A DNA stretch of 64,000 bases. Origin: Acheta domesticus. Lineage: Eukaryota > Arthropoda > Insecta > Orthoptera > Gryllidae. Each line of letters starts with the position of its first letter. The first letter of the stretch is position 1. The translations under genes and the position numbers were made by a program. Of the stretch, positions 35,301-58,745 are shown one piece after another. The notes under the pieces are model-generated. The model made no database searches, had not been told where the DNA came from, and saw only the letters and a list, made by a program, of their open reading frames with translations. Location: NCBI GenBank assembly GCA_031308135.1, contig JAHLJT010002813.1, positions 1 through 64,000 on the forward strand, read 5' to 3'.

Positions 35301-35431
35301 CCGTATTCTACAGGATGAGATTTTTTGAGCATTCTATTACATTTTGTTGGTCCGGCGCTTCTTAATATTACTCCACCTACTCAAAGACGTGTAGAATGTA
35401 AGTAAATAAAACTAAGTCGGGTTAATTAAAC

Positions 35432-38022: not shown

Positions 38023-38129
38023 ATTAAACCATGGCCATGATGGCGCTTCGGTTAAATGCAATTCCCAATTCACGTGAGCTGCATTGTTGCTGGGCTTTGC
38101 CGTGTGCCGTGGGGCGAGGTCGAGGAGAA

Positions 38130-38515
38130 CATGAGGAGCAGGGAGGGCCAAGTTGAAAGGAGGGGGAAAAAGAGACAGGGACAAAGAAAGAGGGAAAATA
38201 GAAAGAGGAAGAGAGGAAAAAATAAAAAGGGAAAATAGAGAAGGAAATAGAGAGGGGAAATAGAGAAAGAGAAAGAAAGGAGAGAGGGGGAAATATAGGG
38301 AGAAATGGAGAGAGGAGGAAAGAGAGAGAGAGATGGAAATGCGAAAACGGGAAAAGAGAGCCAGAGACTGGGGGAAGAAGAGACACAGAGGGGAGAGGTG
38401 ACGCGGAGGGGAGAAGAGAGAAACGGGGGAGAGAAAAGAATCACGGAGGGGAGAAAAATGAAAGAGGGGGAAAAATTAGTGAGGGGGAAAGAGAGGGGGA
38501 GAGGAATATTTCCTC
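38130..38515. repeat. Purine-rich (GA)-type low-complexity tract
   Basis: Almost all A and G on the + strand (gagagggggaaa, agagagagagat and similar). The long open frames on both strands are compositional. Confidence 0.9.
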
Positions 38516-39400
38516 AATTATTTCTTCTGCGGCAGCAACGCGCCGGCATAGAGTAAAGATGTAAGACTAAGGATGGAAGGATGTATAGACAGCGCACTGC
38601 GCGAAGCGCAGGGGCTATGCGGAAACGGTAACTCATTCAGAGATGACACTACCGACGCATTTTAGTGCCATAAAATGTGGTAACCGAGTAGAGCGCGCAC
38701 AGGTCGCAACTCTGCCCCCACTACCGATTTCACCCCTCCACCATTCACTGGCGGTATTTTCAAATTATTGAAACTATTACTGCCACAAGATCTTTCTACG
38801 GCATTTACATCTAGGGAGCACATGGTGGGCTGTTGCCCTAAGCATAAGTATGCGGGACCTTCCGCCTTCACTCTACCAATTAACTGCACCCCAACAATGA
38901 CGTGATCCTGTGACCATAATTATTATAATCATGCGAGCACTTCTCTTATCCATTCATTGCAACGTTTCTTTAAAAACAATATTATTTATCATATAGTGGT
39001 GAAGTATCCTGCGTTGCTCAAGCATTTATTAATCAGGGACTGAAAATAAATTATCGTAATCTATATTAAATTAACATAATTTCCGTTTTACTTCTCACCA
39101 ACAGGGACATCAATAATTGAAAAATATATTAAAAATTAGTTTAGAGTTCATTTTTATAAATATTAGAAACCACATCCTACTATTTCTCTGACGCCACAAG
39201 AGCAATGACCGTGTATTCCAACTTCCAACTTCCAAAGAGCACAGCAGGTACAAGGATTAGGCTTCATACTTCCACGCCAGATGTGCGAAATATTCCTCTT
39301 GCGAGCGAGATGGTCAGCGCTACCCTGATGACAACCCGAAAGTTCCGTCCCGCAGTACAGTTTGCGAGTGCTTATGGACAACATACACGCGAGGTTTCTC
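38516..39400. other. Intergenic sequence without recognised genes
   Basis: Mixed composition. No coding signal was supported. Confidence 0.35.
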
Positions 39401-39670
39401 AAAGGAGTTTAAGTCGAACAGAGTATACGCTGTAGAGCTCTGCAATCAGGCGAAAACAACCGCTCGAGACTCTCGGGCTCCGCGCCGACGCTCGGCGAAG
39501 GGTGGGGGACCTTGCTTGGGGGGAAGAGATAGCTGTTTAACGGACATTTCGACCGGCCGCCTTGCGGCTCCCGCCGAGACGCGGGAGTCGCCGAGCGCCC
39601 GGGCGCTCGAGCGCTCGGCCGCTCGGCCAAGCGCCGGACTGCACAGTAGCTTCGCCCCTCAATGCATGTA
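39400..39670. promoter_or_regulatory. CpG-rich island with nested palindromes
   Basis: GC-rich, with CCGAGCGCCCGGGCGCTCGA- and GAGCGCTCGGCCGCTCGGCC-type palindromes and a GATATAAAG box just after (39675). It could be a promoter or the GC core of a repeat; no transcript is evident on either side. Confidence 0.3.
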
Positions 39671-40663
39671 CGGGATATAAAGTCGCCGCATGTAGTGATC
39701 GCAACACTTTCAATTCATTTTAATCGAAAGAAAATACAATTTCAATTAAACGATTAATTTGTTGAAAAGTAACAATTTATCGATTGACTGGAAATAATTT
39801 TATAGAGACAAACAATACAATTTTTGAAAGAATTAAGGCAAACAAAGACTCTGAAAATAAATTTTTATTGTTTTTCTATATTTATAGTGCTTGAGGGAAG
39901 ATAATTCGTTGCGTACCAATTGTAATGTCATTGAAGTTTCTTACAAACCCGAATATAAGGCATATTTATTAAATACAATGAATATTTGGTCATAATTTCA
40001 CGAGTATATAAGAAAAAAGCAAATGCTAAACAAAAATGAGGTGGGTACTATTTTCCTTGCATCAAAACGTCTTGTCATTGGGCGTAGTAATTTATTGTGA
40101 AATAGTTTATGTAAGCCGACATGGCCTTTGTATTTGTCGACTCAGTCGGCGGCCAAACAACAGCGGTCACGGCACATCAGCCTATTCAACTCAATAATTC
40201 AAAATACATTATTTACTATTATATACACACGTTTAACATTATTTTAAATTCGTCAAAAGTATGTATACATGAAATGATGCATATAAAGTTTTATATGTAC
40301 GAGTACAATGTTTTTCAATTATTCCATTATTTTCGTTTCAATACAAGATAAGCGATTAATTGTAAATAAAAAAATCGTAAAAGCTGAAATTGTGAATCAT
40401 TGACTTCTGTGGAGTAGTATTGAAGCTCCACGAGACCCCCTTCCTTTGAGTGAACTACTGTGAACAGCGTGGCAGGAAGCGATAACGAAGGTTGTGCGAG
40501 GTGACTCGGTGGCTCCCACGCAGCGCGCCATCGCCGTTGCGACGAAATTTCCAGGAAAGGACAGGAAGCAGTTGAAAGAGAAGAGTGGAGATATGTGCAC
40601 AAAGCTTTCCTCGAAAGATATTGAGAAGCTCGCAAGATTATAAATAAAACTAAAAGTACAATG

Positions 40664-40812
40664 AGCTCAAATGCTGAGGTGACTGAGGCAACCCGCACGC
40701 CTACTGCCGGATTAAGAAACCAAGACCTGCGTTTCAAATGCCTGAAAATTACAACAGCAACAACAAAAATATTTGGAAAAAGACGGCAAAAATACAAAAT
40801 TGGAAGGGAAAG
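40664..40812 (+). CDS. Possible first exon, unrecognised
   Basis: An ATG after a CpG-enriched leader opens MSSNAEVTEATRTPTAGLRN, continues to RQKYKIGRER and meets a GTATTA donor-like site. It has no known domain, and the reverse strand is also open. Weak evidence. Confidence 0.22.
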
Positions 40813-41129
40813 GTATTAATATATTTCATTGCACTTGCATCTAAATTTAGCAGAGCATTTGTATTTGCTCCATATTGCACCATATAAAATGAAGGAAAAT
40901 TAATAATTTTATGTTCATTAGAATAAAATAGGCAATTTCCGAAGCATCCGATACCTAGTCATTACAAAGAACGGAATTTATCTCTAAAACTTTTGAGTGC
41001 CTTTTCTTTGAAGTCACAGGCAGAACTGCAATAGATCCACTTGAGGTTCTCCCGTGCGTCCGAGGAGTCGATTTTTAAAGCTTTTTATTCTTTTTTTATA
41101 CAATTTATTCAAATTATTGATACGATTGT

Positions 41130-41366
41130 TACGTGGCGCAGTTCCCGTGAACGGGGTCCGCCGGTTGTCGAGTCTCGGCCGGTTGCAGAGACCGGCCGAG
41201 TCTCGGGCGGTCGCCGGCTCCCGGGAGTCCGCAACCGGCTGCGAAGGACAGTCGAGCGCGTGGTCTCGAGAGAAGAGAGGCGGGCGAGCGCTGGTCGGTA
41301 AAAATCGCGGAGAATGCAGACCTCTAATACGCTGTATTAATTTTCGACCAGAGAAGTAAGTTCACT
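41130..41366 (+). promoter_or_regulatory. GC-rich leader/promoter of the THAP exon
   Basis: A CpG-rich block with GGCCGGTTGCAGAGACCGGCC-like dyads directly precedes the THAP-domain ATG at 41367. The promoter role is inferred from position and composition. Confidence 0.4.
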
Positions 41367-41493
41367 ATGTCTTGTGGAAGAAAATGTTCGAATGCCGAAT
41401 GTGACAACAGTTATCGAAAACATCCAGGGATAAGTTTTCATAAATTTCGAACAATGAATCCAGCTCTGTGTGAAAAATTGATTCTTCATTCTA
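41367..41493 (+). CDS. THAP-domain exon 1 (P-element/THAP9-like)
   Basis: 42 codons plus one base ending at a GTAAGTACT donor. MSCGRKCSNAECDNSYRKHP and then GISFHKFRTMNPALCEK show the first half of a THAP zinc finger: the C-x4-C pair (CSNAEC) followed by the S-F-H-K-F block. THAP fingers are sequence-specific DNA-binding domains of P-element transposases and host regulators. The phase-1 end fits the start of the exon at 58746 (A+GT = Ser), which carries the second half of a THAP finger. I infer a single gene with a 17.25-kb intron. Confidence 0.7.
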
Positions 41494-41699
41494 GTAAGTA
41501 CTTATCATTCCTAAGAAGAAAATATTTATTTCGCTTACTAATATTTTTAAAAAACGACTGAGTTTATAATGAGACGCCGAATTATTTATTATTTATATTA
41601 AGGCTAACTTTTAGCGCTAAATTGAACTTTTGGCACGCCCTGAAAGAATCGCTTTTACGCGACTGTCTAAAAAATATACATATTTGAAATATTGTCACT

Positions 41700-42060
41700 T
41701 TCTCGCTACTGCTTACGCAGTATAGAGAAAGTATTGTAATGCTGCGGGGGAGAAAACCGGGGAATTTTCGGCAGAAACTCTTATTGTCGGGCCGTGGTAA
41801 AGAAAAAGTGGATAAATCTTGTCCCTATAAATAGTAAATTAATTTCTCTAATACGTCGTTGTGTAATCTGAATTCATGTATTGTGGGTCCTTGAGACAGT
41901 AAAATCGATTGACGGCAAAACTGCCCTCACGTCCATCTGTCTGTGATAAATCGTAAGCACGATTTTCATCAACGTTGATGTCCCCAATCGATCTGGCTGT
42001 TGTCGTGGCCCCTTGCATTTGAAACATATGTTAATTGTTATTTTTCCTTTGTTACACCTC
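41700..42060. repeat. Partial copy of the 'GTAATGCTG / TTGTCGGGCC' inverted-repeat family
   Basis: It starts TCACTTTCTCGCTACTGC with a TTGTAATGCTGCGG block and TTATTGTCGGGCC, like the left end of the element at 61848-62157. No matching right end was found. Confidence 0.5.
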
Positions 42061-42109
42061 AATATTTTGACATTTAAATTATTGTATTACCAGATTAGCA
42101 ATCACATAA

Positions 42110-42155
42110 CTTTATTTACGTTTCGGGCACATTGTGGCCCCATCATCAGGTATAA
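42110..42155 (-). ncRNA. Candidate hammerhead ribozyme motif (Penelope-like repeat)
   Basis: On the - strand CTGATGA (42149-42143), then GGGC(CACAATGT)GCCC as a 4-bp stem II, then GAAAC (42124-42120). This is the conserved hammerhead core order. Minimal type I hammerheads of this kind are known from the terminal repeats of Penelope-like elements. Stem III would be very short, so activity may need a dimer. No Penelope RT is seen nearby. Confidence 0.5.
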
Positions 42156-42222
42156 ACTGTAATACATAAAAATTACACATAAAATAACAAAAGGTAGTAC
42201 AATATTATATGTATACATTTAA

Positions 42223-42224
<2 letters not shown>

Positions 42225-42275
<51 letters not shown>
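42225..42275. repeat. (AAT)n microsatellite
   Basis: An uninterrupted AAT run of about 17 units. Confidence 0.95.
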
Positions 42276-42276
<1 letters not shown>

Positions 42277-42811
42277 CAGATTTTTTGATCAAATAATTCA
42301 AGTTGAATATGTGTTATAATGCAGGGAGCAAAATCACCATTCATAAATACGAATGAAACTCCAACTCACAACACATAATCACAATAAAATATGGATATTT
42401 TTATTGTAATGTATTATATTGTATATTTTAATTTTGAGGGTATTTTACCTAAAGCCCCTGGAATTATTTTTTAATTTCTAAAAAATGCCGTCAAATGTTT
42501 TGGTCATGGTCTAATGGTGAAGATCTTAATTTTCTTTAAAAATCCTAAATTTTCAAAAATTGCAAAATCAATATTTTTAGGCGTCTTCCTACAACTACAA
42601 TTAAGAAGAAAATTTATTTTCTTATTGAAACGTGTTCATCAGAAACATATCTTCAAATGAGGAAACGTTCAATCTTTCGAAAACATGAGTATTTTTCGTG
42701 TAATTTTGCGTGAAACAGGCAATTTTGAATTACAAACAATTATTTTCTCAGAAATGGCTCCAATTTTTTCTTTAATTTTTTAAACGTAGAGCTTACAAAT
42801 GCATTTCCCTA

Positions 42812-43369
42812 TTAACCCTTCGTTAGGCGCGCATGGGTCTAGTAGACCCATTGCATTTTAAGAACTCAATATCTCACTGAGCCCTAGGTGTAAGATTATG
42901 AGTTCTGGTGACATCCAATGTTGAACGATTCTGCATCCGTTGGTGAGGTTACCCCAAGATAAGCAGGATGATGATAGGTCACGTAGCTCGTCTTTCTGAC
43001 CGCGCGCGACGCTTGGGATTGCCAGACCCCACGCGCCAAAAGGCGTCACATACTGTTCGCAGAATTTCTTGGTGCCGTTGCGTTGCATTCCTCTCACGCC
43101 AAATCTTTCGGGCATGATTCTTGTGTTCGTGTGTGAACGGAATATTCTCTCTACAGGACGTATATAGTTCTCAATATGAGTGAATATGGTGATCTCCAAA
43201 ATGCGGATGACTCCATGGTTTGTTACTCAAACAATTGCAAAGATCCACAATTACTAGTCTTCCAGGAGATATTCAACAAATGCAAACTAAATCCAGAAAA
43301 CAAAAAATTAAAATAAGATCCTATGTAACCACACATTACAAAAAGAAAAATGTGTCAGTCTGCTACAAC
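42812..43369 (+). pseudogene. piggyBac-like relic, left part
   Basis: TTAACCCTTCGTTAGGCGCG followed by the ATGGGTCTAGTAGACCCATT dyad resembles a piggyBac-type terminus next to its TTAA target. At 43220-43369 the frame reads LQRSTITSLPGDIQQMQTKS, then RSYVTTHYKKKNVSVCY, the region before the C-terminal Cys-rich finger of piggyBac transposases. The 10.5-kb insertion cuts the finger, and the reading resumes at 53877. Most of the transposase is missing. Confidence 0.5.
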
Positions 43370-43774
43370 CAGGGACCGAATGCCGAAATAATAGCGGTAA
43401 AGGTATTTATACCAGTATAGAAATACCTTTACCTCTATTATACCTTTATTCAAAATACCTTAAAAAATACCGGTATAAGACGTCAAATACCTGTATTTTT
43501 AGAGGTATTTTACCTTTATTCGACGTCTATACCGGTAAAATACCTCTATTTAGAGGTATTTTACCGGTATTTTCTCATGAAAAGGATTTTCTCATGAAAA
43601 TACCGGTATTTTCATGACAAAATACCGGTATTTCAGTAGAATCATACAGGTTTCGAAGGGAAACAATCTGACATTTTACGCTGAGATGGCTCAGAGGAAC
43701 AATTATAGACTGCGCAGAGTTTCTGACCGGGGGTCCTAGGGTTCGAGTCTCAACGGTGGCATATTTTCGTCGTG

Positions 43775-44330
43775 GGGGCGCAAACGCGGGTGTGGGGGCG
43801 CGAATGCGCGCGAGGGGGCGCGAACGCGCTTGTGGGCTCTCGCGCGCGTGTAAGGGAACGAACGCGCGTGTCGAGGCGCAAACGCGCGTGGGGTCGCGCG
43901 CGCGTGTGGGCGCGCGAACGCGCGTGTGGGAGCGCGAACGCGCTTGTGGGGTCGTGCGAGCGTGTAAGGGAACGAACGCGCGTGTGGGGGGAGCGAACGC
44001 AGCGTGTGGGAGCGCGAACGCGGGTGCGGGATCGCGAACGCGAGTGTGGGGGCGGGAACGCACGTGTGTTTGGGCGCGAACGCGCGCGTTAGGGCGTGTA
44101 CGCGCGTGCGGGGTCGCGCGCGCGTGTAAGGGCGCGAACGCGCGTGTGGGGGTGCAAACGCGCGTGTGGGGTTCGCGCGCGCGTGTAAGGGCGCGAACGC
44201 GCGTGTGGGGGTGCAAACGCGCGTGTGAGAGCGCGAACGTGCGTGTGGGAGCGCGAACACGCGTGTGGGGGGCGCAAACGCGCGTGGGTTGGGCGTGAAC
44301 GCGCGCGCGTGGGAGCCCGAACGGGCCACT
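43775..44330. repeat. CpG-rich minisatellite, left slot
   Basis: Degenerate units of about 19-21 bp such as gggggcgcgaacgcgcgtgt. Open frames on both strands (up to 213 codons) result from repetition. It occupies the same slot as the 19-bp array of the small family member. Confidence 0.85.
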
Positions 44331-44518
44331 GGATCGGACATTATCTTTTGTTCCTAATCCTTTCGCCTTAAATACACACTCACGCTCTACACTATTAGAC
44401 CTCAGGAGACTAGTCAGAGTGTGTTCCTATTAACGATTGAATGATTATAAGTGATTCCGGGCGCGGCAATTGCTAACCCCGTAAGTGCAGTGCATGCGTT
44501 TTCTACGAGAGGCGGCAG

Positions 44519-47473
44519 ACCTCCGTGAAGATAGCCAGAAAAAATCTCAAAATTCAAAATTTTTTATGGATACGTTTGTCCACCGTTTGACCACATTTGA
44601 CCACCCTTTAGAAAATTTTTACCAGCCTCCGTTCACAAATTAGAACAAAAACAAATTTTTCTGGCCAACTTCACGATTTGACGAAATTACAAGATTTTGC
44701 CCAAAATATTAAAAATATCGAAATTTGAAGTGCGCTTTTGTTTGTCCATCGTTTGACCACCTTTAATCACTAACTACATTATTTTTACCACGTTTCCTCC
44801 AGCAGATATTCGCGAAAAAACGTATTCCACTGCACCCAAAAAACCGTGAAGATGGCCAGAAAAAGTTTTAAAATGCAATTTTTTTGGTCGATTCGTTTGT
44901 CCATCGTTTGACCACTTTTGACCACCCTTTAGAAAATTTTTACCAGGCCGGGTTCAAAAGTTATAGGCCAAAAAAACGTTTTTCCCGCCATTTCTCAAAT
45001 CGACGAATTAGCAACAATCAAATGAAAAATTCGAAACTTTTAATTTGCATTCGTTTCTTACCTCCTAATGACCTCGTAATCACCTTCAGACGTGCTTTAC
45101 CACCAACGGAACAACCCAAAAAAATTTCCAAAAAAGCGTGAAGATGGCCAAAAAATAATTCGAAAATGCAATTTTTTGGGCTAATTCGTTTGTCCATCGT
45201 TTGACCACGTTTGACCACCCTTTAGAAAATTTTTACCAGGCCGCGTTCAAAAGTTACTGCCAAACAACGTTTTTCCCGCCATTTTTTCAATTCGAAAAAA
45301 CAACAAGAAACACGCAGAATTTTCCGTACTTTTCTAACCTCTGCGTTTGTCCATCTTTGCCAAGTGATTGTCCATCACTTAAAATTCGTAAGCTACGTGT
45401 ATTTCCAGAAATACAGGCGAAAAACGTATTTTTCCACAATTTTTTGTAAAATTCCCCAAAAAAACAAAAAATACATTCAAAATTATATAAAAAATACATT
45501 CGCATTCGTTTGTCCATCGTTTGAGCCACGTTTGACCACTCTTTAGAAAATTTTTACCAGCCTCCGTTCACAAATTAGAACAAAAACAAATTTTTCTGGC
45601 CAACTCACCATTTGACGAAATTACACGATTTTGCCCAAAATATTAAAAATATCGAAATTTGAAGTGCGCTTTTGTTTGTCCATCGTTTGAACCACCTTTA
45701 ATCACTACCTACATTATTTTTACCACGTTTCCTCCAGCACATATTCGCGAAAAACGTATTCCACTGCACCAGAAACCGTGAAGATGGCCAGAAAAAGTTT
45801 TAAAATGCAAATTTTTTTGGTCGATTCGTTTGTCCTCGTTTGACCCTTTTGACCACCCTTTAGAAAATTTTTACCAGGCCGGGTTCAAAAGTTATAGGCA
45901 AAAAAACGTTTTTTCCCGCCATTTCTCAAAATCGACGAATTAGCAACAATCAAATGAAAAATTCGAAACTTTTAATTTGCATTCGTTTCTTACCTCCTTA
46001 TGACCTCTTAATCACCTTCAGACGTGATTTACCACCAACGGAACAACCCAAAAAAAAATTTCCAAAAAAGCGTGAAGATGGCCAAAAAATATTCGAAAAT
46101 GCATTTTTTGGGTAATTCGTTTGTCCATCGTTTGACCACGTTTGACCACCCTTTGGAAAATTTTTACCAGGCGCGTTCAAAAGTTAATGCCAAAAAAACG
46201 TTTTTCCCGCCATTTTTTCAATTCGAAAAAACAACAAGAAACACGCAGAATTTTCCGTACTTTTCAAACCTCTGCGTTTGTCCATCTTTGGAACGTGATT
46301 GTCCATCACTTAAAATTCGTAAGCTACGTGTATTTCAAGAAATACAGGCGAAAAAACCTATTTTTTCCACAATTTTTTGTAAAATTCCCCAAAAAAAAAC
46401 AAAAATACATTCAAATCATATAAAAATACATTCGCATTCGTTGTCCATCGTTTGACCACGTTGACCACTCTTTAGAAAATTTTTACCAGGCCGCGTTCAA
46501 AAGTTAATGCCAAAAAACTTTTTTCCCGCCACTTTTTCAATTCGAAAAAAAAAACAAGAAACACGCAGAATTTTCCGTACATTTCTACTCTCTGCGTTTG
46601 GTCCATCTTTGGAACGTGATTGTCCATCACTTAAAATTCGTAAACTACATGTATTCAAGAAATACAGGTGAAAAAACGAATTTTCCCACCTTTTCTTGTA
46701 AAATTCCTCAAAACACAAAAAATATATTCAAATTATATCAAAAAATCATTCGCATTCGTTTGTCCATCGTTTCATGTCGTTTGCTTAACCTTTAGAAAAT
46801 TTTTAACCAGCCTCCATTCATAAATTTGCGCACAAACAAATTTTCGGGCCAAGTTCTTGTCTTGATGAAATTACAAGATTTCCTTGGAAATTATTAAAAA
46901 TACCACAATTTGACGTGGCGCATCTCGTTTATCCATCTTTTGATGACGTTTCCCTAGCGTTTAGAAATTTTTACCAGCCTCCGTTGAGAAAATAGAGCAA
47001 AAACAAAGGTTTCGGGCCAACTTGACTGTTTGAAATTTAGTCCCATTATTGGAACATGATTGAGCTGTATGAAACGCACTATTAGTTGCCGAATATGTTT
47101 TAGTAGTTGTATGAAAATAATTTGTTTTCGCACGTAATGTTGTAGAACTTGTAACGTGTTTCAGAAAAAAGATGACATATGCGCCGCTGTGACAAAATTA
47201 TTTTCTCAGGAGTTAAGTTTCGTTACAAGTAACGAAACGAAAGTCTGCGCGAATTTAGTTTTGTTACAGAAAGAACAGATCGTCTAAGAACAGTTTCGTT
47301 TCGTTTCTTTACTGAAATGAAACAAATGTGACTTTCCTTTTCGTGGGTAAGAAACGTTGTTTCTTTATTTAGTTTCGTTATTAATATTTTTAGAAGGAGA
47401 AGTAACGAAATTCGAGAGAGGGCCATTGAGAGGAGTTGTACACCAGACTACATTTCTGTACTTTATTTTTGTC
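44519..47473. repeat. Left arm of the giant palindrome (higher-order repeat)
   Basis: It is built from recurring blocks TTCGTTTGTCCATCGTTTGA, CCACCCTTTAGAAAATTTTT and GGCCAACTTCACGATTTGAC. A unit of about 934 bp is repeated (compare 44627 with 45561), with partial third copies to about 47000. The inner end (47260-47473) carries AACGAAACTAAATAAAGAAA-type sequence in reverse and GTTGTACACCAGACTACATT. About 270 bp near 46960-47240 has no partner in the right arm. No coding frame is supported. Confidence 0.9.
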
Positions 47474-47860
47474 GCGGCGTCCGCTATCAGCGTGTCTGTC
47501 AGCAGAGTGTCCTTTTACTTGGAGGGCACTGCAGGTCACCGAGGCGTAGGACTCTCGAAGTCCCTCCCATTCTGGGCGAGCGGGGGTGTGGCCGTGAGCG
47601 GGGTGAGAAGGGCACTGCCGCTTCTCAGAAGCGCTGCTGAGAGGTGTCGTTGGAAGGGGCGTGGGCCTGCGAGCAAATCGGTCGGTGGACATAGCCCCCC
47701 CCCCTTCCCATTTTTTTTAGGTAATTCCGCTGTAATCCGTACCAAACAAAGTTTTTATTTCATGTTAACCATGTATCCAGAACGGTGAGTATTGCGAGTA
47801 AACATTTACCACAAGAGCCAGAACATATTTTAAGAGTAATTAAATTATCGATAGAGGATA
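47474..47860. repeat. GC-rich loop segment related to the 19-kb tandem repeat
   Basis: It contains AGAAGCGCTGCTGAGAGGTG, close to GAAGCGCTGCTGAGAGGCGC in the array at 19560-19860, plus a CCCCCCCCCTTCCC run. It forms part of the original loop between the palindrome arms. Confidence 0.6.
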
Positions 47861-50075
47861 GAAGAAAACGTTAATAACCACCAAAATTATACCTCCCCCA
47901 CATGCTCCAACTCAGAAACTAATCACCCAAAACATAAATTGGGAAACATTTAGGAAAATAGTGAAAACCAAGACACCACAATTCAAAATATTAAACTCCC
48001 CTATGGAAATAGAAAAATCAGTCATGCAGATAAACGAAATAATAACAAACACAATAAACACTTACAAGAAAACAAACCCACATATTCTTCTAAACAGACA
48101 AAACCAAAACTACCCAAAGAGAAAACAGAAATAATCAACACACGCAATAAAACTAGAAGGCTATGGAGCAAGAATAGAATTCCCCAACAGAAAAAAGAAC
48201 TAAATCTTCTCAATGAAATAACAAAAAGGGCAATAAATATACACATCCAAAAATCCTTTGACAGGAAAACAGAAACATTAAATACCTCAAACAAATCACT
48301 ATGGCACTTCTCAAAATGTCTTAATAAAAAAATAACCATTCCGCCACTCAACACGACACAAGGTATAAAATATGCCCCAAGATAAGGCAGAAGCACTAGC
48401 AGAACACTTCGCTCAAACATTCAAGCTTAATAACACACCCGTACACCCAGACCACCAAGCAATAATTGATTCAAATGGAGCACCCAACTATGACGTCCCA
48501 CAGAGATTAAAATTAATTTCACCTACTGAAGTCAAAAACCTCATAAAAAAATTGCCTAAAAGAAAAACTCTCGGACATGACCTAATTAGCAACCAAATAT
48601 TAAAAAACCTGCCCACAACCACAATCGCATACATAAACAACATCTATAATTCATCATTCAGACTAGGTTATTTCCCAAGAACTTGGACAATATCAAATAT
48701 AATCCCGATCCCTAAACCAAGCACAAATCATAGCCTCGCAGTGAATTACAGACCAATAAGTCTCCTCCCAACGTTATCTAAATTATTTGAAAAAAATAAT
48801 GTTAAAAATACTCAATAATCATCTAACAAAATCAGAAGCTATTCCAAACCACCAATTTGGTTTTAGAAAGCGTATCTCAACTGCACATCAATTGCTAAGG
48901 ATTACTGAATACATTCACACTGCCTTCCAAGAAAAGAAACACTCAATAGTAACACTCTTAGATGTATCTCAAGCATTTGACAGAGTGTGGCACCCCTGAT
49001 TAATATACAAACTCAAAACAATAGCAACACCTAAATACTTACTAAATATTATCACACAATTTATATCAGACAGAGTAACCATAGATAATCATAGCTCCAA
49101 CCCACGCCCTATAGAAGCAGGACTTCCACAAGGCACACCCTTATCCCTAACACTATTCAATATTTACACAGCAGATATCCCCACCACACGATACACTCAA
49201 CTTGCACAATTTGCTGACGATACGGCAATATTCACATCAAGTTGCACCCTGACATATAGTAGCACAAAAATTCAACAACATTTGAATAAAATAGACGAAA
49301 GGGCAATAAAATGGAAAATAGAACTAAATCCAAATAAATGAAAATTTAGACCATTCTCTGCTCCCCACCCATTACTATTAAACAATAGTCAAATAAACTG
49401 GACACCATCAAACCAACCTATAAAATACTTAGGTCTAAATCTTGACACAAGACTAAACTGGAAAAACCACATCAATATAAAAACACAACAGGCTAAAATC
49501 AAATTAATCCAACTCAAGCCAATACTTAATAAAACTTCCAAACTTTCACTAACAAATGCAATAACACTATATGAAATTTTCATAAGACCCATAATGCTAT
49601 ACGCTTGCCCCACCTGGACAAATGCTGCACCATCCAATGTAAATAAAATACAAATATTACAGAACAGATTCCTCAGAATATTCACAAACGCCCCATGGTT
49701 CATTTCAAACCATCAACTCCATAGTGAATTATTTATAAACTCAATCATCCATCAAATAGCACGCCTATCCAATAATTTCTACTCTAACATAAACTCAATA
49801 GATCAACTCAAACAATACAATTTAGCCTCAACAAACAACACACAGACCAGAATAAACAATAGATACCCGTTCGAATTCCTTCCTAAAAATATTCTCAGAC
49901 AATTGTGATCTGTAGATACTCTTATGAGTAATCTACCCCATTGTAGTAGCAATAGTAGAACTAGGTTAAGCATAGTTTAAGTTAGTAGTAAGTCATCACA
50001 TATATGAAAGAGTGTTGTACTGATCTATGTACATCCCAACAAGCAATAAATAAATTTTAAAAAAAGAGGAAAACG
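47861..50075 (+). mobile_element. 5'-truncated Jockey-like LINE in the palindrome loop
   Basis: A target duplication around GAAAACGT (47864-47871 and 50069-50076) brackets about 2.2 kb ending AATAAATAAATTTTAAAAAA. Broken ORF2 reads RRLWSKNRIPQQKKELN, KLPKRKTLGHDLISNQILKN, VNYRPISLLPTLSKLFEK, GFRKRISTAHQLLRI, VTLLDVSQAFDRVWHP, GLPQGTPLSLTLFNIY and LAQFADDTAIF, covering the RT domain to the C-terminal tail. The endonuclease domain is absent. At least four frame breaks or stops make it inactive. It is younger than the palindrome it interrupts. Confidence 0.85.
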
Positions 50076-50112
50076 TAGAGATAATAACTCGTGTTTAAGT
50101 AGTTCTGTTCTG

Positions 50113-52800
50113 AAACAAAAATAAAGTACAGAAATGTAGTCTGGTGTACAACTCCTCTCAATGGCCCTCTCTCGACTTTCGTTACTTCTCCTTCTAAAAA
50201 TATTAATAACGAAACTAAATAAAGAAACAACGTTTCTTACCCCACGAAAAGTAAGTCACATTTGTTTCATTTCAGTAAAGAAACGAAACGAAACTGTCTT
50301 AGACGATCTGTTCTTTCTGTAACAAAACTAAATTCGCGCAGACTTTTCTAAAATTTCTAACGCTAGGGAAACGTCATCAAAAGATGGATAAACGAATGCG
50401 CACGTCAAATTGTGGTATTTTTAATATTTCCAAGGAAATCTTGTAATTTCATCAAGACAAGAACTTGGCCCGAAAAATTTGTTGTGCGCAAATTTATGAA
50501 TGGAGGCTGGTAAAAATTTTCTAAAGGTTAAGCAAACGACATGAAACGATGGACACAACGAATGCGAATGATTTTTGATATATTTGAATATATTTTTTGT
50601 TGTTTTGAGGGAATTTTACAAGAAAAGGTGGGAAATTCGTTTTTCACCTGTATTTCTTGAAATACATGTAGTTTACGAATTTTAAGTGATGGACAATCAC
50701 GTTCCAAAGATGGACAAACGCAGAGAGTAGAAATGTACGGAAAATTCTGCGTGTTTCTTGTTTTTTTTTCGAATTGAAAAAGTGGCGGGAAAAAAGTTTT
50801 TTGGCATTAACTTTTGAACGCGGCCTGGTAAAAATTTTCTAAAGAGTGGTCAAACGTGGTCAAACGATGGACAAACGAATGCGAATGTATTTTTATATGA
50901 TTTGAATGTATTTTTTGTTTTTTGGGGGAATTTTACAAAAAATTGTGGAAAAATAGGTTTTTCGCCTGTATTTCTTGAAATACACGTAGCTTACGAATTT
51001 TAAGTGATGGACAATCACGTTCCAAAGATGGACAAACGCAGAGGTTTGAAAAGTACGGAAAATTCTGCGTGTTTCTTGTTGTTTTTTCGAATTGAAAAAA
51101 TGGCGGGAAAAATGTTTTTTGGCATTAACTTTTGAAGCGCGGCCTGGTAAAAATTTTCCAAGAGGGTGGTCCAAACGTGGTCAAACGATGGACAAACGAA
51201 TTAGCCCAAAAAATTGCATTTTCGAATTATTTTTTTGGCCATCTTCACGCTTTTTTGGAAATTTTTTTTGGGTTGTTCCGTTGGTGGTAAATCACGTCTG
51301 AAGGTGATTAAGAGGTCATAAGGAGGTAAAGAAACGAATGCAAATTAAAAGTTTCGAATTTTTCATTTGATTGTTGCTAATTCGTCGATTTTGAGAAATG
51401 GCGGGAAAAAACGTTTTTTGCCTATAACTTTTGAACCCGGCCTGGTAAAATTTTCTAAAGGGTGGTCAAAAGTGGTCCAAACGATGGACAAACGAAATCG
51501 ACCAAAAAAATTTGCATTTTAAAACTTTTCCTGGCCATCTTCACGGTTTCTGGGTGCAGTGGAATAACGTTTTTCGCGAATATGTGCTGGAGGAAACGTG
51601 GTAAAAATAATGTAGTTAGTGATTAAAGGTGGTCAAACGATGGACAAACAAAAGCGCACTTCAAATTTCGATATTTTTAATATTTTGGGCAAAATCGTGT
51701 AATTTCGTCAAATGGTGAGTTGGCCAGAAAAATTTGTTTTTTGTTCTAATTTGTGAACGGAGGCTGGTAAAAATTTTCTAAAGAGTGGTCAAACGTGGTC
51801 AAACGATGGACAAACGAATGCGAATGTATTTTTATATAATTTGAATGTATTTTTTGTTTTTTGGGGAATTTTACAAAAAATTGTGGAAAAATACGTTTTT
51901 CGCCTGTATTTCTGGAATACACGTAGCTTACGAATTTTAAGTGATGGACAATCACTTGGCAAAGATGGACAAACGCAGAGGTTAGAAAGTACGGAAAATT
52001 CTGCGTGTTTCTTGTTGTTTTTTCGAATTGAAAAAATGGCGGGAAAAACGTTGTTTGGCAGTAACTTTTGAACGCGGCCTGGTAAAAATTTTCTAAAGGG
52101 TGGTCAAACGTGGTCAAACGATGGACAAACGAATTAGCCAAAAAATTGCATTTTCGAATTATTTTTTTGGCCATCTTCACGCTTTTTTGGAAATTTTTTT
52201 TGGGTTGTTCCGTTGGTGGTAAAGCACGTCTGAAGGTGATTACGAGGTCATTAGGAGGTAAAGAAACGAATGCAAATTAAAAGTTTCGAATTTTTCATTT
52301 GATTGTTGCTAATTCGTCGATTTTGAGAAATGGCGGGAAAAAACGTTTTTTGCCTATAACTTTTGAACCCGGCCTGGTAAAATTTTCTAAAGGGTGGTCA
52401 AAAGTGGTCAAACGATGGAGAAACGAATCGACCAAAAAAATTTGCATTTTAAAACTTTTTCTGGCCATCTTCACGGTTTTTGGGTGCAGTGGAATACGTT
52501 TTTCGCGAATATCTGCTGGAGGAAACGTGGTAAAATAATGTAGTTAGTGATTAAAGGTGGTCAAACGATGGACAAACAAAAGCGCACTTCAAATTTCGAT
52601 ATTTTTTAATATTTTGGGCAAAATCTTGTAATTTCGTCAAATCGTGAAGTTGGCCAGAAAAATTTGTTTTTGTTCTAATTTGTGAACGGAGGCTGGTAAA
52701 AATTTTCTAAAGGGTGGTCAAATGTGGTCAAACGGTGGACAAACGTATCCATAAAAAAATTTTGAATTTTGAGATTTTTTCTGGCCATCTTCACGGAGGT
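50113..52800. repeat. Right arm of the giant palindrome
   Basis: Reverse complement of the left arm block for block: AAATGTAGTCTGGTGTACAA near 50130, ATGGACAATCACGTTCCAAA, TCAAACGATGGACAAACGAA and CTGGCCATCTTCACGGAGGT at 52782-52801. It lacks the ~270-bp block present in the left arm. The alignment by eye is very close (few differences per 100 bp). Confidence 0.9.
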
Positions 52801-53018
52801 AGGCGGCAGTTATTGCATGGCAAGATCAGGCGCCGAGGGCTGCGCCGTTGCGTAGGCAGTTTCCGGAGATCAGCGTTTCGACCCACGGGCGTCTCCGTTT
52901 CGGCAGAGGATAACGCACTCGACCTATATACTCCACGGTATTAATTTCTTTTCGCACTGAGTAGAATTGAAATATGAGAGAAGGATGTTTGACCGTAGGC
53001 CCCAACAAACGCTTTGCC

Positions 53019-53069
53019 GAATGTGTAGTGTGTGTGTGGTGTGTGTGTGTGTGTGTGTGTGTGTGGTGT

Positions 53070-53100
<31 letters not shown>

Positions 53101-53140
53101 AATCGAAAGAGAACGAAAGAGAGAAAGAGAAAGAAGAGCG
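53019..53140. repeat. (GT)n then (GA)n microsatellites
   Basis: A GT-rich run (about 53022-53070) passes into a GA-rich run (about 53070-53140). Confidence 0.9.
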
Positions 53141-53213
53141 TGTGTATATAGCGCGTGAGTGCATAGAGCATGAGTGTATAGCGCATAAGTGTGTAGCGCG
53201 CGTGTGAGAGGTG

Positions 53214-53570
53214 CAAGCGTTTGTTTGGCTCGCGCGTTTGTTCGGCGCGCGCGTTTGCTCGGCGCGCGCGTTTGTTAGGCGCGCGCGTTTGTTCGGCACG
53301 CACGTTTGTTCGGCGCGCGCGTTTGTTCGGCGCGCGCGTTTGTTCGGCGCGCGCGTTTGTTCGGCGCGCGCGTTTGTTCGGCGCGCGCGTTTGCTCGGCG
53401 CGCGCGTTTGTTCGGGCGCGCGCGTTTGCTCGGCGCGCGCATTTGTTCGGCGCGCGCGTTTGTTCGGCGCGCGCGTTTGTTCGGCGCGCGCGTTTATTCG
53501 GTGCGCGCGTTTGTTCGGCGCGCGCATTTGTTCGGCGCGCGCGTTTGTTCGGTCGACGCGTCGTTTGTTC
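53214..53570. repeat. 17-bp CpG minisatellite, right slot
   Basis: About 20 copies of tttgttcggcgcgcgcg. Peptide-like frames such as RRARLFGARVCSA appear in all frames and are artefacts of the repeat. The monomer differs from the left-slot array of the same insertion. Confidence 0.9.
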
Positions 53571-53876
53571 GGCGTTGTGTTCGGCGCGTTGTGTGGGCGC
53601 GCGCGTGTGGTTAGCGCGTGCATGGGTTTGCCGCGAGAGCGTGTGGCACGCGTTTGTGGCGCGTGTGTGGCGTGCGCGTTGTGGTGCGGGTGTGGGGCAC
53701 GCGGCACTATTTCCATTGAAAATACCGGTATACCTTTTGGACGTCCATACCGGTATAGACGTCCTATAAAGGTATTTTTACCGGTATAAAAGAATAAAGG
53801 TATTTTATACCGGTATGAAAAAATACCGGTATTTTACCGGTATTTTTACCGGTATTCAATACCTTTTCGGTCCCTG

Positions 53877-53960
53877 GCTACAAGGAAAAAAATTGTCGCC
53901 CAAAATATGCTTGTATAAAATGTGACAATTTCTTATGTTAATACAAACATCACCATAGGC
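53877..53960 (+). pseudogene. piggyBac-like relic, right part (Cys-rich finger)
   Basis: Joined to the sequence left of the insertion at the target duplication, the frame reads VSVCYKEKNCRPKYACIKCD then NFLC. This resembles the C-terminal cysteine-rich finger of piggyBac transposases. Confidence 0.45.
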
Positions 53961-54659
53961 ACTTCATTGAAATTGATTGATTTGGCCTTTTCCAAGTTAA
54001 AAATTAGTTGTTATACTAAAAATAATTATATATTTCATTATAGTCATTAATAGTCACATAGACTATTTTCAATAATGAGAGAAATTTGTGCTTTTGTAGC
54101 ATCTCTAGTTGTAATTGACATGATTGTTTTGTACGTAAGCATTTACTTCAACTGTACATGCGGAATTTCATTCAAATCGATTTGTTATGGAAGACCTGTA
54201 ATTGTGGATCGTCTTTGTCTCCCGGTCGGTTTACGTCTAGCATTACTGTCAATATTGATTCGAGGTCGGCGGTCGGGAAAATTTTATGTGCCGCCAAAAG
54301 TACTTTTTATGTAAAATTCAATATTTTGTCACAAAAATTCAATCTTATTTTTTCGATGATGAGGAAACCCAATTTTATATAAAATACCGTGGATTTGTTA
54401 ATTCAATTTCTTTTCAAAACGTATATATCTTTTCCCCAGGGTGAACAGCGGAGCAACAAAACAATTTCTGAAAGGTGTCAACCCTCTACGAATATATTAG
54501 GAAATGATGGAAATATATGGTCACCCTAAAGAGAATCGTACCAAAGGCACACATTTTTCGAAGTGGTGATCTCCAAACTTTTCTTATTATTTCAGGTCGC
54601 ATCAACGACTGGGTCATTAGAGATCATTATTGGATTTCACGTTATAGTATGAGGATGAA
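53961..54659. other. AT-rich sequence without recognised genes
   Basis: An open frame at 54075-54311 has hydrophobic stretches but no recognisable domain. No right piggyBac terminus was identified. Confidence 0.35.
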
Positions 54660-54689
54660 ACGATATGCTGATGATAGGGGGTGAAGGGA

Positions 54690-54795
54690 CTAACACATAC
54701 AGCCATGCTCGTGGTGGGACTCGAACTCGCGACTCCTCGGTCCGAGATCACTACGGCACTACTTTCTTAGCGATCTCGGCCACGGCGCCGACTCC
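54690..54795 (-). repeat. tRNA-derived SINE head
   Basis: The - strand carries GCCGTGGCCGAGATCGCTAA (A-box region) and GCGAGTTCGAGTCCCACCAC (B-box region) at tRNA spacing. The acceptor stem does not pair, so a functional tRNA is unlikely. Confidence 0.5.
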
Positions 54796-55271
54796 AAACA
54801 TTGTTACATCTAGGGCCTGCCCCCAGTATTTTCACCTTCGCTGAATTCTCACAGTTAATTAAAATGTATAAATGCATATTAATGAAAAATGCTGCAATAT
54901 TTCAAAATAATTCCATTATTCGAATAATAATTATCAACAAGAGGAAATAAATACAAGTAGAATCAGTACAAATAAAAGAACTGTATAAAAGAGGTTTATC
55001 ATTGTAATAAATTATTTTTTCTCAGAAGTGTGATATGTGACACAATGTGCCGAAGTAACGAGAGAGCGTCTTAGGCAACTTCCTGGGCACAGGACGCACG
55101 GGCTGGTTCAAATGACAGGTTTCGACGGTTCAGTTTAATTATTTATTCACAGGTTATTGTGTATAAAATACATTTTCCTGCATTCAGCGTTGTTTCATCA
55201 ACTACTCATTATGTTAAACAATTTATAAACTCGACATCTTTTGTCGACTTTTGTGTTCTTTTCCACTTATC

Positions 55272-55558
55272 TATACCGGGTGTCCTGGGAGGAAACGTCG
55301 AAACTTCGAAAATAAGCTCTTATGACAATTCTAAGCATATTCTATCTAATAAACTACGTGGATATTCCCAATGGTTGGGCCGCAATGAGTACTAAAAATG
55401 TGGTTTGAAAAAATGATTTCAAGGCAATAATTTGTATTTCCTTATTGCGGCTCAACCATTCAGAATATCCAAGTAATTTATTAGACAAAATATGCTTAGA
55501 ATTGTTTTAAGAGCTTATTTTCGAAGTTTCGACGTTTCCTCCCCGGACACTCTGTATA
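55272..55558. mobile_element. MITE with ~115-bp inverted arms
   Basis: Arms begin TATACCGGGTGTCC and end GGACACTCTGTATA. The inner parts (GGAAACGTCGAAACTTCG and its complement; CTCTTATGACAATTCTAAGC and counterpart) match nearly base for base. The total is about 287 bp. TA ends suggest a Tc1/mariner-type element. Confidence 0.85.
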
Positions 55559-55740
55559 TTTTCATTCTTCCTCTTGCAATTTATTTCCTTTTAAAATTTG
55601 GATTATTTCTTTATTCCATGTATGTTTTGGAGGCGTTTTTTGAGAAAAATTTTGAAAATGTCCCGAGGGCTTCATGTAAAGTGTCCTCAAATTTTGAAGA
55701 AAATTTTTGAAAATCTCAAAGCTTGGACTAGAACCATATC

Positions 55741-56235
55741 GACTTTCCCTATACTATGTATATTTCTCCGTATATACGTACGTATATAGGAAAGTAAAAA
55801 TGGAGCCATTTTTTAGGAAACTTTGAAAATGTAATTGAGGCTTCATATAAAGAACTCCCCAGAAAAATCAATATATCATTTTCAAACCCGTAGGATCTCC
55901 AGTTGCTTTCAATCGATCGGGGAATACGAATGTTGAAGAAAATTATGTGAACGGTTTAGGCACTAGAATTGATCACTGACGGACACACTGACTGAGTGAC
56001 GGAAAGAGGAACACATGGACGGACGTTTTGCCATCGATCGATTTTTCGGTATCAAAGATCTACAATGCATCTATTAATACAACACGACGTAATGAAAGTA
56101 ATTCTCTACAAAATGGAACACTATCCACTTTTCCTACCAGGGTCCCGTAATAAGAATTTTTCTACCGAAAAATCGCCGTTTTCCGGCGCACGATTACAAT
56201 ATTTTCTCTTCTTTCGAGGTAAGGCGAGAAGATAA
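55741..56235. repeat. Copy of the 'TTTCCCTATACTA / GGAAAGT' family
   Basis: It has CTTTCCCTATACTATGTATA and TATACGTACGTATATAGGAA near the left, and GGGTCCCGTAATAAGAATTT with CGCACGATTACAATATTTTC near the right, as in the other copies. Confidence 0.5.
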
Positions 56236-56518
56236 AAATCGGTTATGCGGTAGTTAATTAGTTATTAAATAGTAGTTAAAAAATTCTCGTACTACGCTTA
56301 TCTCATTCAGATATGGTGGCTAGGACACTTTAATAGATCTGCCAATGCGCGCGTGTCGGAATTTTAAACATAATTTAAACATATACTTTAGTGTTTCAGA
56401 TTAACTTTTTAATGTTTAACAAGTTAGCATCTAGCATAAATGAATTAAAATAAGCTTACTCTATTTGTATTTTAAGTAACAATGATTGATTTTCTCCCAT
56501 TTAAACTTATTTTTGCAT

Positions 56519-56947
56519 TTAAGGAATTCCCGACACATAACTTCTTGTCCATGCTTCGCTGATTGGATCTACAAAAACTGCTGCTCCAGTCCAGTGTTCT
56601 AGTGTCTGTTCAGAATGTGTGTGAGTTCCAGTGCAGATCGCTGACCAAGCATTTATTAGGGAGTTTTTGCACAGCGAGGCGTTACAGCAATCGACAACAT
56701 TATCAATCTTCTGTATATGCGCCGTCAGAGTTTTGGGTGCGCCGAAGATAGGATTGCAGTCGATTGTTGTACGGTAAACCGTGCAAAAATTCCCTATTAA
56801 TTCTGTTGTATTTTCCCGTTCGACGAATAATTCTGAAGCAAATATGCTGAAGTGCATCTCATTCAATTGGGGTCTATGCAACAGCGAAATTGTTTTCATC
56901 GCTCCATCGCAAGTAGCGATTCTTCGTAAGAAAAAACGTCTTAACAT
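56519..56947 (-). other. 142-codon open frame, unrecognised
   Basis: The - strand frame begins MLRRFFLRRIATCDGAMKTI and ends DPISEAWTRSYVSGIP. The composition is protein-like (several Cys and Trp, no low complexity), but I recognise no family. It lies in the presumed 17-kb intron and may be part of an old transposon. Confidence 0.25.
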
Positions 56948-57089
56948 TTTCCCGTTTACCTGTAGCCATTATACGGAATATATTTGCAATGAATATGGTT
57001 ACAGTGAACTGGTCGTTCGTTACTGTAATGAGTCTTCACCATTCTAGATAAGGATAAATACCTATTTTAAAGAGTTGTGTATAATTAAA

Positions 57090-58680
57090 AATTAGTGGTG
57101 CAACAGAATGGCACAGACTTTCCCGTATTAGTTTTCTATTTTCCTGGGTCTTCGCTAGCTATTCGGATTGCAACATACTCTATCATCGCCAAAAGTACAT
57201 TTTTTTTTGTCATTTTCTTAATTTTTTCGGTTTCCTATTGGTAGAACAGAAACATTAATTTTAGAATATTAAAGAACACAAAAACCTAGCCGTAAATGGC
57301 AATTTTCTTTTAAAAATTATGTGCCGTTTAAGAGAAAATGGCGTTTTAGCACTACTAAAAATGCGAAATTTCAAGCTCATTTTCACAGAAAAAAAATTTT
57401 TGAGTTTTGAGAATACTTTATTTGAAGTTATTTGAAGCACTTACACTCACAAATATAATCATCTTTACAAATTGCGGATAATGTGCATATTAAAGATGTG
57501 AGAGATGTTTCAAAAAATTTACATTTATATATAATTTTTGAAAAAAAAACAAAAAAAAAACTCAAAATAAACTTCACGCTATACTAATGAGTGTAATTAG
57601 CACTATCCGTTAAAAAGTTTCAAGAAAAAAATTGCAGCCATATACGAGAAAATGACGTTTGAGCATTTCTGAAAATGCCGAAATTTGAGCTACTTTTCAC
57701 AGAAAACGGTAGTGTTTCGAGAAATTTTACTTGACATTATTTAAAGCATATATACTCGTAAATATAATAATGTAAAAAAAAATCGCCGATAATGTAAATA
57801 TTAACGACGTGAGAGACAAGTCAAAAAATTTACATTTTTGTAATTTTTGAAAAAACCAACCGATAGACCAAAATGGCTTTTATGTCATTGATAGAGTACA
57901 TTTACCACTATCCCTACTAAAAGTTTAAAGAAAAAATTGGAGCTGTTTTTGAGAAAATTTTGTTTTTGTAATTTTTTAAAATTGCACATATTGCACGCAA
58001 TATTGCACGAAAACTACCAAAATTGTGAAAAACATTTACATGACCTTTATTAAAGAACTCAATATGCAGAACAAGTTTTATTTGAAGAAAAAATCTCTAT
58101 CTTCAATTTTGTAGTTGGAGAAAGACGTCGAAAAAATTCAAACTTTCACATTTTCGAAAATTCAGAGCTGTACGTGAAATCAGACTATGCCATGTTAAAA
58201 GTGTATTTTCCTCTATTCATACAAGAAATTTAAAGAAAAAATTTGGAGCCGTTTTTGAGAAAATGTTGAAAATCCCCGGGGGCTTCATATAAAGTACCCC
58301 AAAATTTTTAAAGAATCTTTTTCAAAATCACAAAGCTTCGACTAGAATCAGATCGACTGGGGAATTCAATTTTGAAGAAAATCGACCGAACGGTTTAGGC
58401 GCTAGCAGTGTTCACAGACAGACGACAGACGGAGCAGACGGACAGGAACGGACCTCAATTTCGATTTTTAAGTATAAAGAAGCAACAAATCATGGAGTTT
58501 GACCACGAGATAGAGGATTTTTTTTCTTAATTTAGCAACTGGTTTTATCCACTTACTCGTTTTCACGGCCCGGCAATTAATTTTTTTCCGCCAAAAATTG
58601 GCCATTTTTTCGCGCAGCATTACATAACTTTCCCTATACTACGTATATCACTCCGTGTATACGTACGTATTCGGGAAAGT
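57090..58680. mobile_element. Long copy of the 'CAACAGAATGGCACAGACTTT' foldback family
   Basis: It starts TAGTGGTGCAACAGAATGGC, runs through repeated GAGCCATATACGAGAAAATG-type blocks and ends in the GTCCGT-type / TTTCCCTATACTACGTATAT end seen at 15660. No coding capacity. Confidence 0.6.
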
Positions 58681-58745
58681 AAAAATTTAAGAAGTACTTA
58701 TGTTTTATTTACTAGAAATATCAGTAATGTGGATTCCTTTTTTAG

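Follow-up and report, generated by a model that had tools for sequence, protein, structure and literature searches.

The 64-kb window, the whole stretch of cricket DNA analysed here, carries a hAT-ended structure of 10,507 bp at 43370-53876, with the ends CAGGGACCGAA and TTCGGTCCCTG. The order within it is a hAT-type end, a minisatellite, an arm, a loop, a second arm, a second minisatellite and the opposite hAT-type end. Comparison with relatives assigns the two outer parts, both on the plus strand, to one interrupted hAT-type non-autonomous element. The left part (43370-44518) holds the end CAGGGACCGAA, a TACCGGTATTTT-rich subterminal block, minisatellite 1 (43772-44305, 20-bp unit), a middle tract and the left copy of a 9-bp target-site duplication. 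The right part (52801-53876) holds a middle tract, a TG/GA run, minisatellite 2 (53217-53574, 17-bp unit), a 3' block and the end TTCGGTCCCTG. Between them lies a complete foldback transposon, loop included, of 8,282 bp (44519-52800, plus strand), with a left arm of 2,954 bp (44519-47472, plus strand), a loop of 2,642 bp (47473-50114, plus strand) and a right arm of 2,686 bp (50115-52800, minus strand). Scans of the window for Rfam families and tRNAs returned no matches. A sequence-only reading of the window had described hAT-type ends, palindrome arms of about 2.7-3.0 kb and minisatellites on both sides, and this anatomy holds. The 8-bp duplication that it had also reported is present on the plus strand but not exact, with GCTACAAC on the left (43362-43369) matching GCTACAAG on the right (53877-53884) at 7 of 8 positions.

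Foldback arms and loop

Both arm borders adjoin an exact 9-bp direct repeat, AGGCGGCAG, at 44510-44518 and 52801-52809 on the plus strand. These are the only two occurrences on the plus strand of the window, each flush with an arm, and the palindrome is therefore a separate insertion. The sequence-only reading had proposed the arm borders as the place to look for such a second target duplication. The borders were set by local alignment of 44519-47472 against 50115-52800, which gave 2,645 identities, 9 mismatches and 332 gap columns. Left-arm positions 46972-47239, missing from the right arm, account for about 268 of these columns, and the remaining indels are small and mostly in homopolymers. 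Since 12 fetched copies keep this sequence in both arms, its absence from the right arm is a deletion at this locus. The arms are tandem arrays with sub-units of roughly 0.3 kb and a higher-order unit of about 0.93 kb, and an inner domain outside the array occupies about 47034-47472 of the left arm. The left arm ends in ACCTCCGTGAAGATAGCCAG and the other arm reads AGATGG. The 14-bp end motif recurs at about 6, 326, 620, 1257 and 1551 bp in many arms.

The loop carries a truncated, broken fragment of a non-LTR retrotransposon (LINE) on the plus strand (47872-50064), recognized by a reverse-transcriptase domain (RVT_1, E 9.2e-16). The fragment is bounded by AGAAGAAAACGT (47860-47871) and AGAGGAAAACGT (50065-50076), which are alike at 11 of 12 positions. 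The loop outside it amounts to about 400 bp before and about 40-50 bp after. Comparisons with a slice of 2,184 bp (47883-50066) recovered the fragment in 14 of 15 other distinct loci, covering at least 1,888 bp of the slice at 96.7-97.9% identity. An insertion private to the window copy is thus rejected, with the same junctions found wherever these exist. As the junctions are constant across copies (16 rows at the 5' side, 14 at the 3' side), the LINE fragment was captured once into an ancestral loop and then amplified as a passenger. Its decay would have taken place between insertion and amplification.

The foldback family across the genome

The exact 25-bp arm end occurs 79 and 87 times on searching the window's own 2.33-Gb genome (control: 0 and 0). 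Among the matches listed (100 of 166 ends), 72 form 36 inward-facing pairs less than 20 kb apart, spanning 2,252-17,164 bp, with no outward pairs, one same-direction neighbour and 28 unpaired ends. Twenty foldback stretches were fetched. Target duplications were counted in 17 sequences with both foldback ends, namely the window, 15 other loci and a second assembled copy of the window locus (L025), which is left out of the count of 16 distinct loci. In L017, L021, L027 and L028, the second end or a clean flank lay outside the stretch, and these were not counted. An exact 9-bp duplication is found in 15 of the 17 sequences and 14 of the 16 distinct loci. The two exceptions are imperfect 9-bp duplications, with one mismatch in L013 and two in L015. 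Duplications of 7, 8, 10 or 11 bp were seen in none of the 17, and when 9-mers were compared across loci 0 of 270 matched.

Empty sites were sought by joining the flanks of family copies with one duplication copy, leaving out L025. The joined flanks of L009 match the window itself at 17112-17242 (plus strand), a paralogous empty site with 113 identities, 18 mismatches and 5 gap columns across the junction, the gaps lying away from the junction. L012 and L022 are neighbouring insertions in one repeat and each shows the other's empty site, with gaps close to the junction. The joined flanks of L016 aligned to a repeat with 95 identities, 21 mismatches and 7 gap columns, and this site was not counted owing to a gap beside the duplication. 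The joined flanks of L026 also spanned repeats. The target duplications and the empty-site paralogues show that the arm ends, ACCTCCGTGAAGATGGCCAG, delimit the unit in which the foldback moves. The family thus has long, near-identical inverted repeats with tandem sub-repeats, its own ends, target duplications and empty sites, which are the structural features of a foldback element. Exact arm patterns were found at no place in viral and prokaryote contig collections, as expected for a foldback residing in a large eukaryotic genome.

Differences between copies and between arms show that tandem units are gained and lost, which alters arm length. The median arm mismatch is about 0.6% within copies and 1.25% between copies (L025 kept, L013 left out). 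The means are nearly equal (1.24% within, 1.39% between) because of one outlier, L024, at 10%. These values suggest that exchange may keep the two arms within a copy similar. This sizeable family, with 166 exact ends in a single genome, combines clean target duplications with arms that vary in length by tandem units and with a fixed passenger derived from a retrotransposon, and it can serve as a natural series for studying how foldback arms grow and stay alike. A broader joint reading appears improbable as a whole. It would have one arm copied from the other within each element, the end-motif copies kept as a transposase-binding array, the broken LINE fixed as a loop spacer aiding persistence of the palindrome, and the outer hAT ends giving the window copy a second, independent movement as a 10.5-kb unit.

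Nested origin of the structure

Inverted ends of the CAGGG type are typical of hAT elements, which duplicate 8 bp. Both features are found in the outer element, the ends in the window and in relatives alike. We classify it as a putative hAT-type non-autonomous element of the MITE type, a label taken from its ends and duplication length. CpG-rich minisatellites distinguish it from hAT MITEs, with which it shares the ends and the 8-bp duplication. After removal of the foldback and one duplication copy the element measures 2,216 bp, following a plan of minisatellite, middle and minisatellite between CAGGGACCGAA-type ends. A relative of 854 bp without foldback (copy A; 3547-4400, plus strand) has an exact 8-bp duplication, GTTTAAAA, and shares its ends with the larger structure, as the sequence-only reading had noted. 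Twelve further hAT loci were fetched. Eight of these show both ends (855-1,627 bp), and the left end lay outside the stretch in the other four (L033, L038, L039, L042). Six of the eight have an exact 8-bp duplication, the exceptions being L035 (7/8) and L037 (no match in register). The 361-bp 5' block is 89.5-90.6% identical to the genomic copies L034, L040, L041 and L043, and the foldback arm had no match in any of the 12 fetched hAT stretches. The four hAT relatives that carry the rest of the middle do not share a tract of about 215 bp on either side of the insertion (44325-44518 and about 52810-52834), and for this reason a clean empty site of the window's own foldback insertion was not seen.

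The structure almost certainly consists of two unrelated, independent DNA transposons, a foldback family (probably Mutator-like) nested inside a hAT-type MITE with 8-bp target duplications. A non-autonomous hAT-type element would have inserted first, duplicating 8 bp, and a foldback of 8.3 kb from another family would later have entered its middle and duplicated AGGCGGCAG. The sequence-only reading had offered both a distinct foldback transposon landing in a small copy and a composite mega-element mobilised by hAT ends. The former is right, the arms having their own ends and 9-bp duplications genome-wide. The composite, a 10.5-kb unit moved as a whole by hAT transposase with the palindrome as a built-in part, is very improbable and fails the refutation test that the reading itself had set. 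The unit may still be movable, with outer hAT ends on both sides and a 7/8 duplication flanking them. However, the palindrome carries its own 9-bp duplication, and hAT relatives with both ends were read without it. The reading had also raised the question of whether arms always lie between hAT-type ends, and in the flanks read they do not. Flanks read at the 15 other foldback loci (0.4-6.2 kb per side) lack hAT sequence, apart from a single spot in L022 with two overlapping TG-run matches (41 and 32 bases). Most of these flanks were read for about 400 bp, less than the distance of about 1.1 kb from arm to hAT end in the window; at eight loci one side was read for 1.2 kb or more.

The sole other sequence seen with both parts is C2935 (locus L025), which at 98.6% identity shares the foldback, its 9-bp duplication and the right hAT end with the window. 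We rejected it as proof of composite transposition, since its wider surroundings match the window, and we regard it as a second assembly of one locus. On its left side C2935 is interrupted by an N gap, and the left hAT end of the window structure is thus known from a single sequence. The second assembled sequence argues against the palindrome being an artefact, that is an inverted duplication arising from assembly or scaffolding. Most of the differences between the arms are indels, often in homopolymers, of the kind that noisy long reads produce. Yet C2935 repeats the structure and other loci hold paired inward ends with matching 9-bp duplications, and an artefact is exceedingly improbable. 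Nested insertions can pass for a single giant element in raw sequence. The earlier view that no described element has such a combination is correct only because the combination is two elements; the structural features of the foldback have described counterparts in Tetris, Tm1 and Galileo.

Superfamily and described foldback systems

Mutator elements (MULEs) duplicate about 8-11 bp of target, commonly 9, P elements duplicate 7-8 bp, and the duplication of Galileo is 7 bp long. The foldback has an exact 9-bp duplication in 15 of 17 sequences and the P/Galileo length of 7-8 bp in 0 of 17. We suggest that its transposase is most likely Mutator-like, judging by the 9-bp duplication, the long and internally repetitive arms and the presence of MULE-type domains elsewhere in the genome. 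Transposase was not found in the foldback copies read and would thus act in trans. The genome search for transposase covered the MULE domain PF10551 and gave 63 matches, none of them inside the 36 inward pairs (among the matches listed, 100 of 166 ends) or 11 further fetched copies. It is therefore the length of the duplication and the build of the element that support the Mutator label. Membership of P/Galileo, hAT or another superfamily, with convergent long repetitive arms, is unlikely but carries some weight. Galileo arms, of the P superfamily, have the same build and measure 4,246 and 4,680 bp in one copy, no transposase is tied to the cricket family among the copies examined, and the description of Tetris relays a proposal that separate lineages can give rise to foldback forms (PMC4079207). 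Against such an assignment stand the duplication of exactly 9 bp, never 7 or 8, and the lengths described for Tm1 (Mutator/Foldback, most commonly 9 bp) and Tetris (8-10 bp).

Set against Tetris, Tm1, Galileo and FB4 by their descriptions, the foldback would be a new family within a structural kind already described, rather than a new giant element. Tetris of Drosophila virilis is described as a non-autonomous foldback with 8-10 bp duplications, inverted repeats of up to 1,735 bp composed of an outer domain, an internal tandem array of about 220-bp units and an inner domain, and a middle domain without apparent coding capacity; its array length differs between allelic copies (PMC4079207). The cricket foldback shares the non-autonomous state, this arm organization, a duplication within that range, a middle that appears non-coding and array length that varies among copies. 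Its arms, however, reach about 3.3 kb across the family, its tandem unit is larger (about 0.3 kb within about 0.93 kb), its duplication is exactly 9 bp in 15 of 17 sequences, and its loop has one fixed LINE fragment. Tm1 of root-knot nematodes is described with composite inverted repeats containing internal repeated motifs and with duplications most commonly of 9 bp (8-10 bp in 45 of 53), and one Tm1 copy is reported to host a different inverted-repeat element (PMC3169594). Composite repeats and 9-bp duplications are common to both families, whereas Tm1 differs in its short repeated motifs (about 14 bp), in asymmetric end motifs of 7 bp that lie beyond the inverted repeat and in a putative transposase present in some copies, which was not found in the cricket copies read.

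For Galileo of Drosophila, one copy of 9,021 bp is described with the two repeats of the lengths given above, internal direct repeats are linked to secondary transposase-binding sites, other transposons' fragments are carried and sequence exchange among copies is proposed (PMC4168063, PMC3573991). The very long inverted repeats, internal direct repeats and carried transposon fragments recur in the cricket family, in contrast to the transposase that places Galileo in the P superfamily. By analogy with Galileo, the internal end-motif copies at near-fixed positions could serve as extra transposase-binding sites. FB4 of Drosophila is described as a terminal-inverted-repeat element that carries and multiplies foreign sequence, as in the Ssk-FB4 family (PMC8277862). 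The cricket foldback likewise carries and multiplies foreign sequence, but its passenger is a broken LINE in the loop and not a host gene.

Nesting of the foldback in a hAT-type element

The palindrome at 44519-52800 is a separate insertion into a hAT-type non-autonomous element. The insertion is marked by the duplication AGGCGGCAG, which abuts both arm ends (44510-44518 and 52801-52809) and is otherwise missing from the + strand of the 64-kb window. A second target duplication at the arm borders, raised by the sequence-only reading, is thus present and flush with both arms. The anatomy described in that reading is also borne out, including the outer ends, an 854-bp relative, the palindrome arms and two minisatellites, one on each side of the palindrome. 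One of its two alternatives, a single 10.5-kb element, dissolves into ordinary nesting of a foldback inside a hAT element. The outer element spans 10,507 bp (43370-53876), with ends CAGGGACCGAA and TTCGGTCCCTG and a flanking duplication agreeing at 7/8 bp. The small relative (3547-4400; 854 bp) has an exact 8-bp duplication. The hAT element was present before the foldback because it is interrupted by it.

We fetched 12 hAT loci from the genome (40 were scored among 1,062 candidates). Both hAT ends lie inside the stretch at eight of these, with element lengths of 855-1,627 bp, and six of the eight copies carry an exact 8-bp duplication. None of the 12 stretches (~3.1 kb each) contains a match to the foldback arm. 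The right middle tract and the second minisatellite are present in four hAT loci (L033, L034, L037 and L038), three of which also contain the first minisatellite. Hence, the layout of minisatellite, middle and minisatellite is a property of a hAT subfamily. A ~215-bp tract around the insertion point (44325-44518 and about 52810-52834) is absent from the same four loci. Inside the hAT element, A-box- and B-box-like, tRNA-like stretches were seen by eye at 43688-43763, but an ARAGORN scan of the window detects no tRNA. The flanks of the 15 other foldback loci were compared mostly over ~400 bp and, at eight loci, over 1.2 kb or more on one side. Nothing in these flanks resembles the hAT element except at a single place in L022, where two TG-run matches of 41 and 32 bases overlap.

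A mobile foldback family

The foldback family is large and clean. The assembly (2.33 Gb, 6,511 contigs) contains 79 forward and 87 reverse exact copies of the 25-base arm end, with 0 + 0 occurrences of the reversed control. The 185-base arm end has 40 matches at 99-100% identity (40 scored among 1,626 first-look candidates). Among the first 100 listed copies of the exact 25-base end, there are 36 inward-facing pairs of neighbours less than 20 kb apart (2,252-17,164 bp), no outward pairs, one same-direction neighbour pair and 28 unpaired ends. Twenty foldback stretches were fetched, 16 of which have both ends and comparable flanks, making 17 sequences with the window copy. An exact 9-bp duplication lies flush with the ends in 15/17 sequences, the other two departing from it by a single mismatch (L013) and by two mismatches (L015). 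A duplication of 7, 8, 10 or 11 bp fits none of the 17 copies, and 9-mers from different loci never match (0/270). L025, a foldback locus on the chromosome-scale sequence C2935, is the window locus assembled twice, giving an exact duplication at 14/16 distinct loci. Together with its neighbours, L025 matches window 12597-25965 (99.0%) and 44447-64000 (98.6%), with an N gap left of the foldback. No block corresponding to window 25966-44446 was seen at the equivalent position in C2935 (68.15-68.20 Mb). These alignments suggest that the window represents an alternative haplotype or a duplicated contig of the chromosome-scale sequence.

Empty sites were also recovered. The joined flanks of foldback locus L009, with one duplication copy, give an alignment with window 17112-17242 that spans the junction (113 identities, 18 mismatches, 5 gap columns). 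This segment falls within a reading frame (16979-17476) that is Tc1-like by eye and has no Pfam match. Foldback loci L012 and L022 lie near each other within one repeat, and each provides the empty site of the other, the alignments having small gaps close to the junction (112 identities, 17 mismatches and 16 gap columns; 88, 10 and 14). The foldback has been shown to move as a unit, producing 9-bp duplications.

Arm evolution and a passenger LINE

The left arm (44519-47472) and right arm (50115-52800) align with 2,645 identities, 9 mismatches and 332 gap columns, ~268 of which correspond to left-arm 46972-47239. This domain is present in both arms of 12 fetched copies, therefore the window's right arm lost it. 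A stretch of the inner left-arm domain (47034-47179) resembles window 62245-62390 (71% identity over 147 columns), so a portion of another repeat may have been incorporated into the arm. Arm length ranges from ~1.7 to 3.3 kb among copies, with size increments consistent with tandem units. In L012, L022 and L023, one arm is longer than its partner by roughly one 0.93-kb unit. The end motif CGTGAAGATGGCCA repeats within many arms at ~6, 326, 620, 1257 and 1551 bp from the end, additionally at 2189 in some longer arms and at 2482 in one arm (L014). Over the outer 960 bp, median arm mismatch is ~0.6% within copies (16 copies) and 1.25% between copies (476 comparisons). The means are nearly equal (1.24% within vs 1.39% between) because of the outlier L024 at 10%. 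The lower within-copy median suggests, short of proof, exchange between the arms of one copy.

The loop holds a ~2.2-kb reverse-transcriptase fragment; one piece matches RVT_1 (E 9.2e-16) and the other two have no Pfam match. At least 1,888 of the 2,184 bp of this LINE fragment are found in 14/15 other distinct loci at 96.7-97.9% identity, the exception being L013, a 3.3-kb deletion copy. In the window, the fragment is flanked by an 11/12 repeat. The LINE junctions are constant in 16 aligned rows on the 5' side and 14 rows on the 3' side. Constant junctions and the presence in 14/15 loci indicate that the LINE inserted once and then multiplied as a passenger. A common LINE truncation in L010 and L014, and a common ~580-bp insertion at the same LINE position in L011 and L023, point to putative subfamilies with several source copies. 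Stretches with longer or unpaired foldback ends (L027, L028, L021) hold a Ty3/gypsy-like frame, a mariner-type transposase and, in L021, a longer LINE relative with endonuclease and reverse-transcriptase domains, its kinship being a visual judgement based on protein segments in common.

Transposase source and described relatives

No open frame in the 17 complete sequences exceeds 323 aa, the longest found. A transposase would act on the foldback in trans. This transposase is most likely Mutator-like given the duplication length, the parallel with Tm1 and 63 MULE-domain matches in the genome. None of the 63 matches lies inside the 36 pairs or 11 further fetched copies in a transposase search covering MULE only, which counts against a Mutator-like source. 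Duplications in the Tm1 family of root-knot nematodes are mostly 9 bp (PMC3169594). Tetris, Tm1 and Galileo jointly cover the foldback's features: kilobase arms, internal tandem units, arm-length change, secondary binding sites, pieces of other elements carried as passengers, and nesting. The structure appears to be already known in kind. Among the titles and abstract openings listed from the open-licence literature, none describes the family itself or the nesting of a foldback within a hAT element. The window also contains other transposase-related sequences. An open 567-aa frame at 5615-7318 (- strand) has the Pfam domains DDE_1, HTH_Tnp_Tc5 and CENP-B_N; it is pogo/Tigger-like. A fragment at 60524-61006 (+ strand) has a TNP-like RNase H C-terminal domain and is presumably P/THAP9-like.
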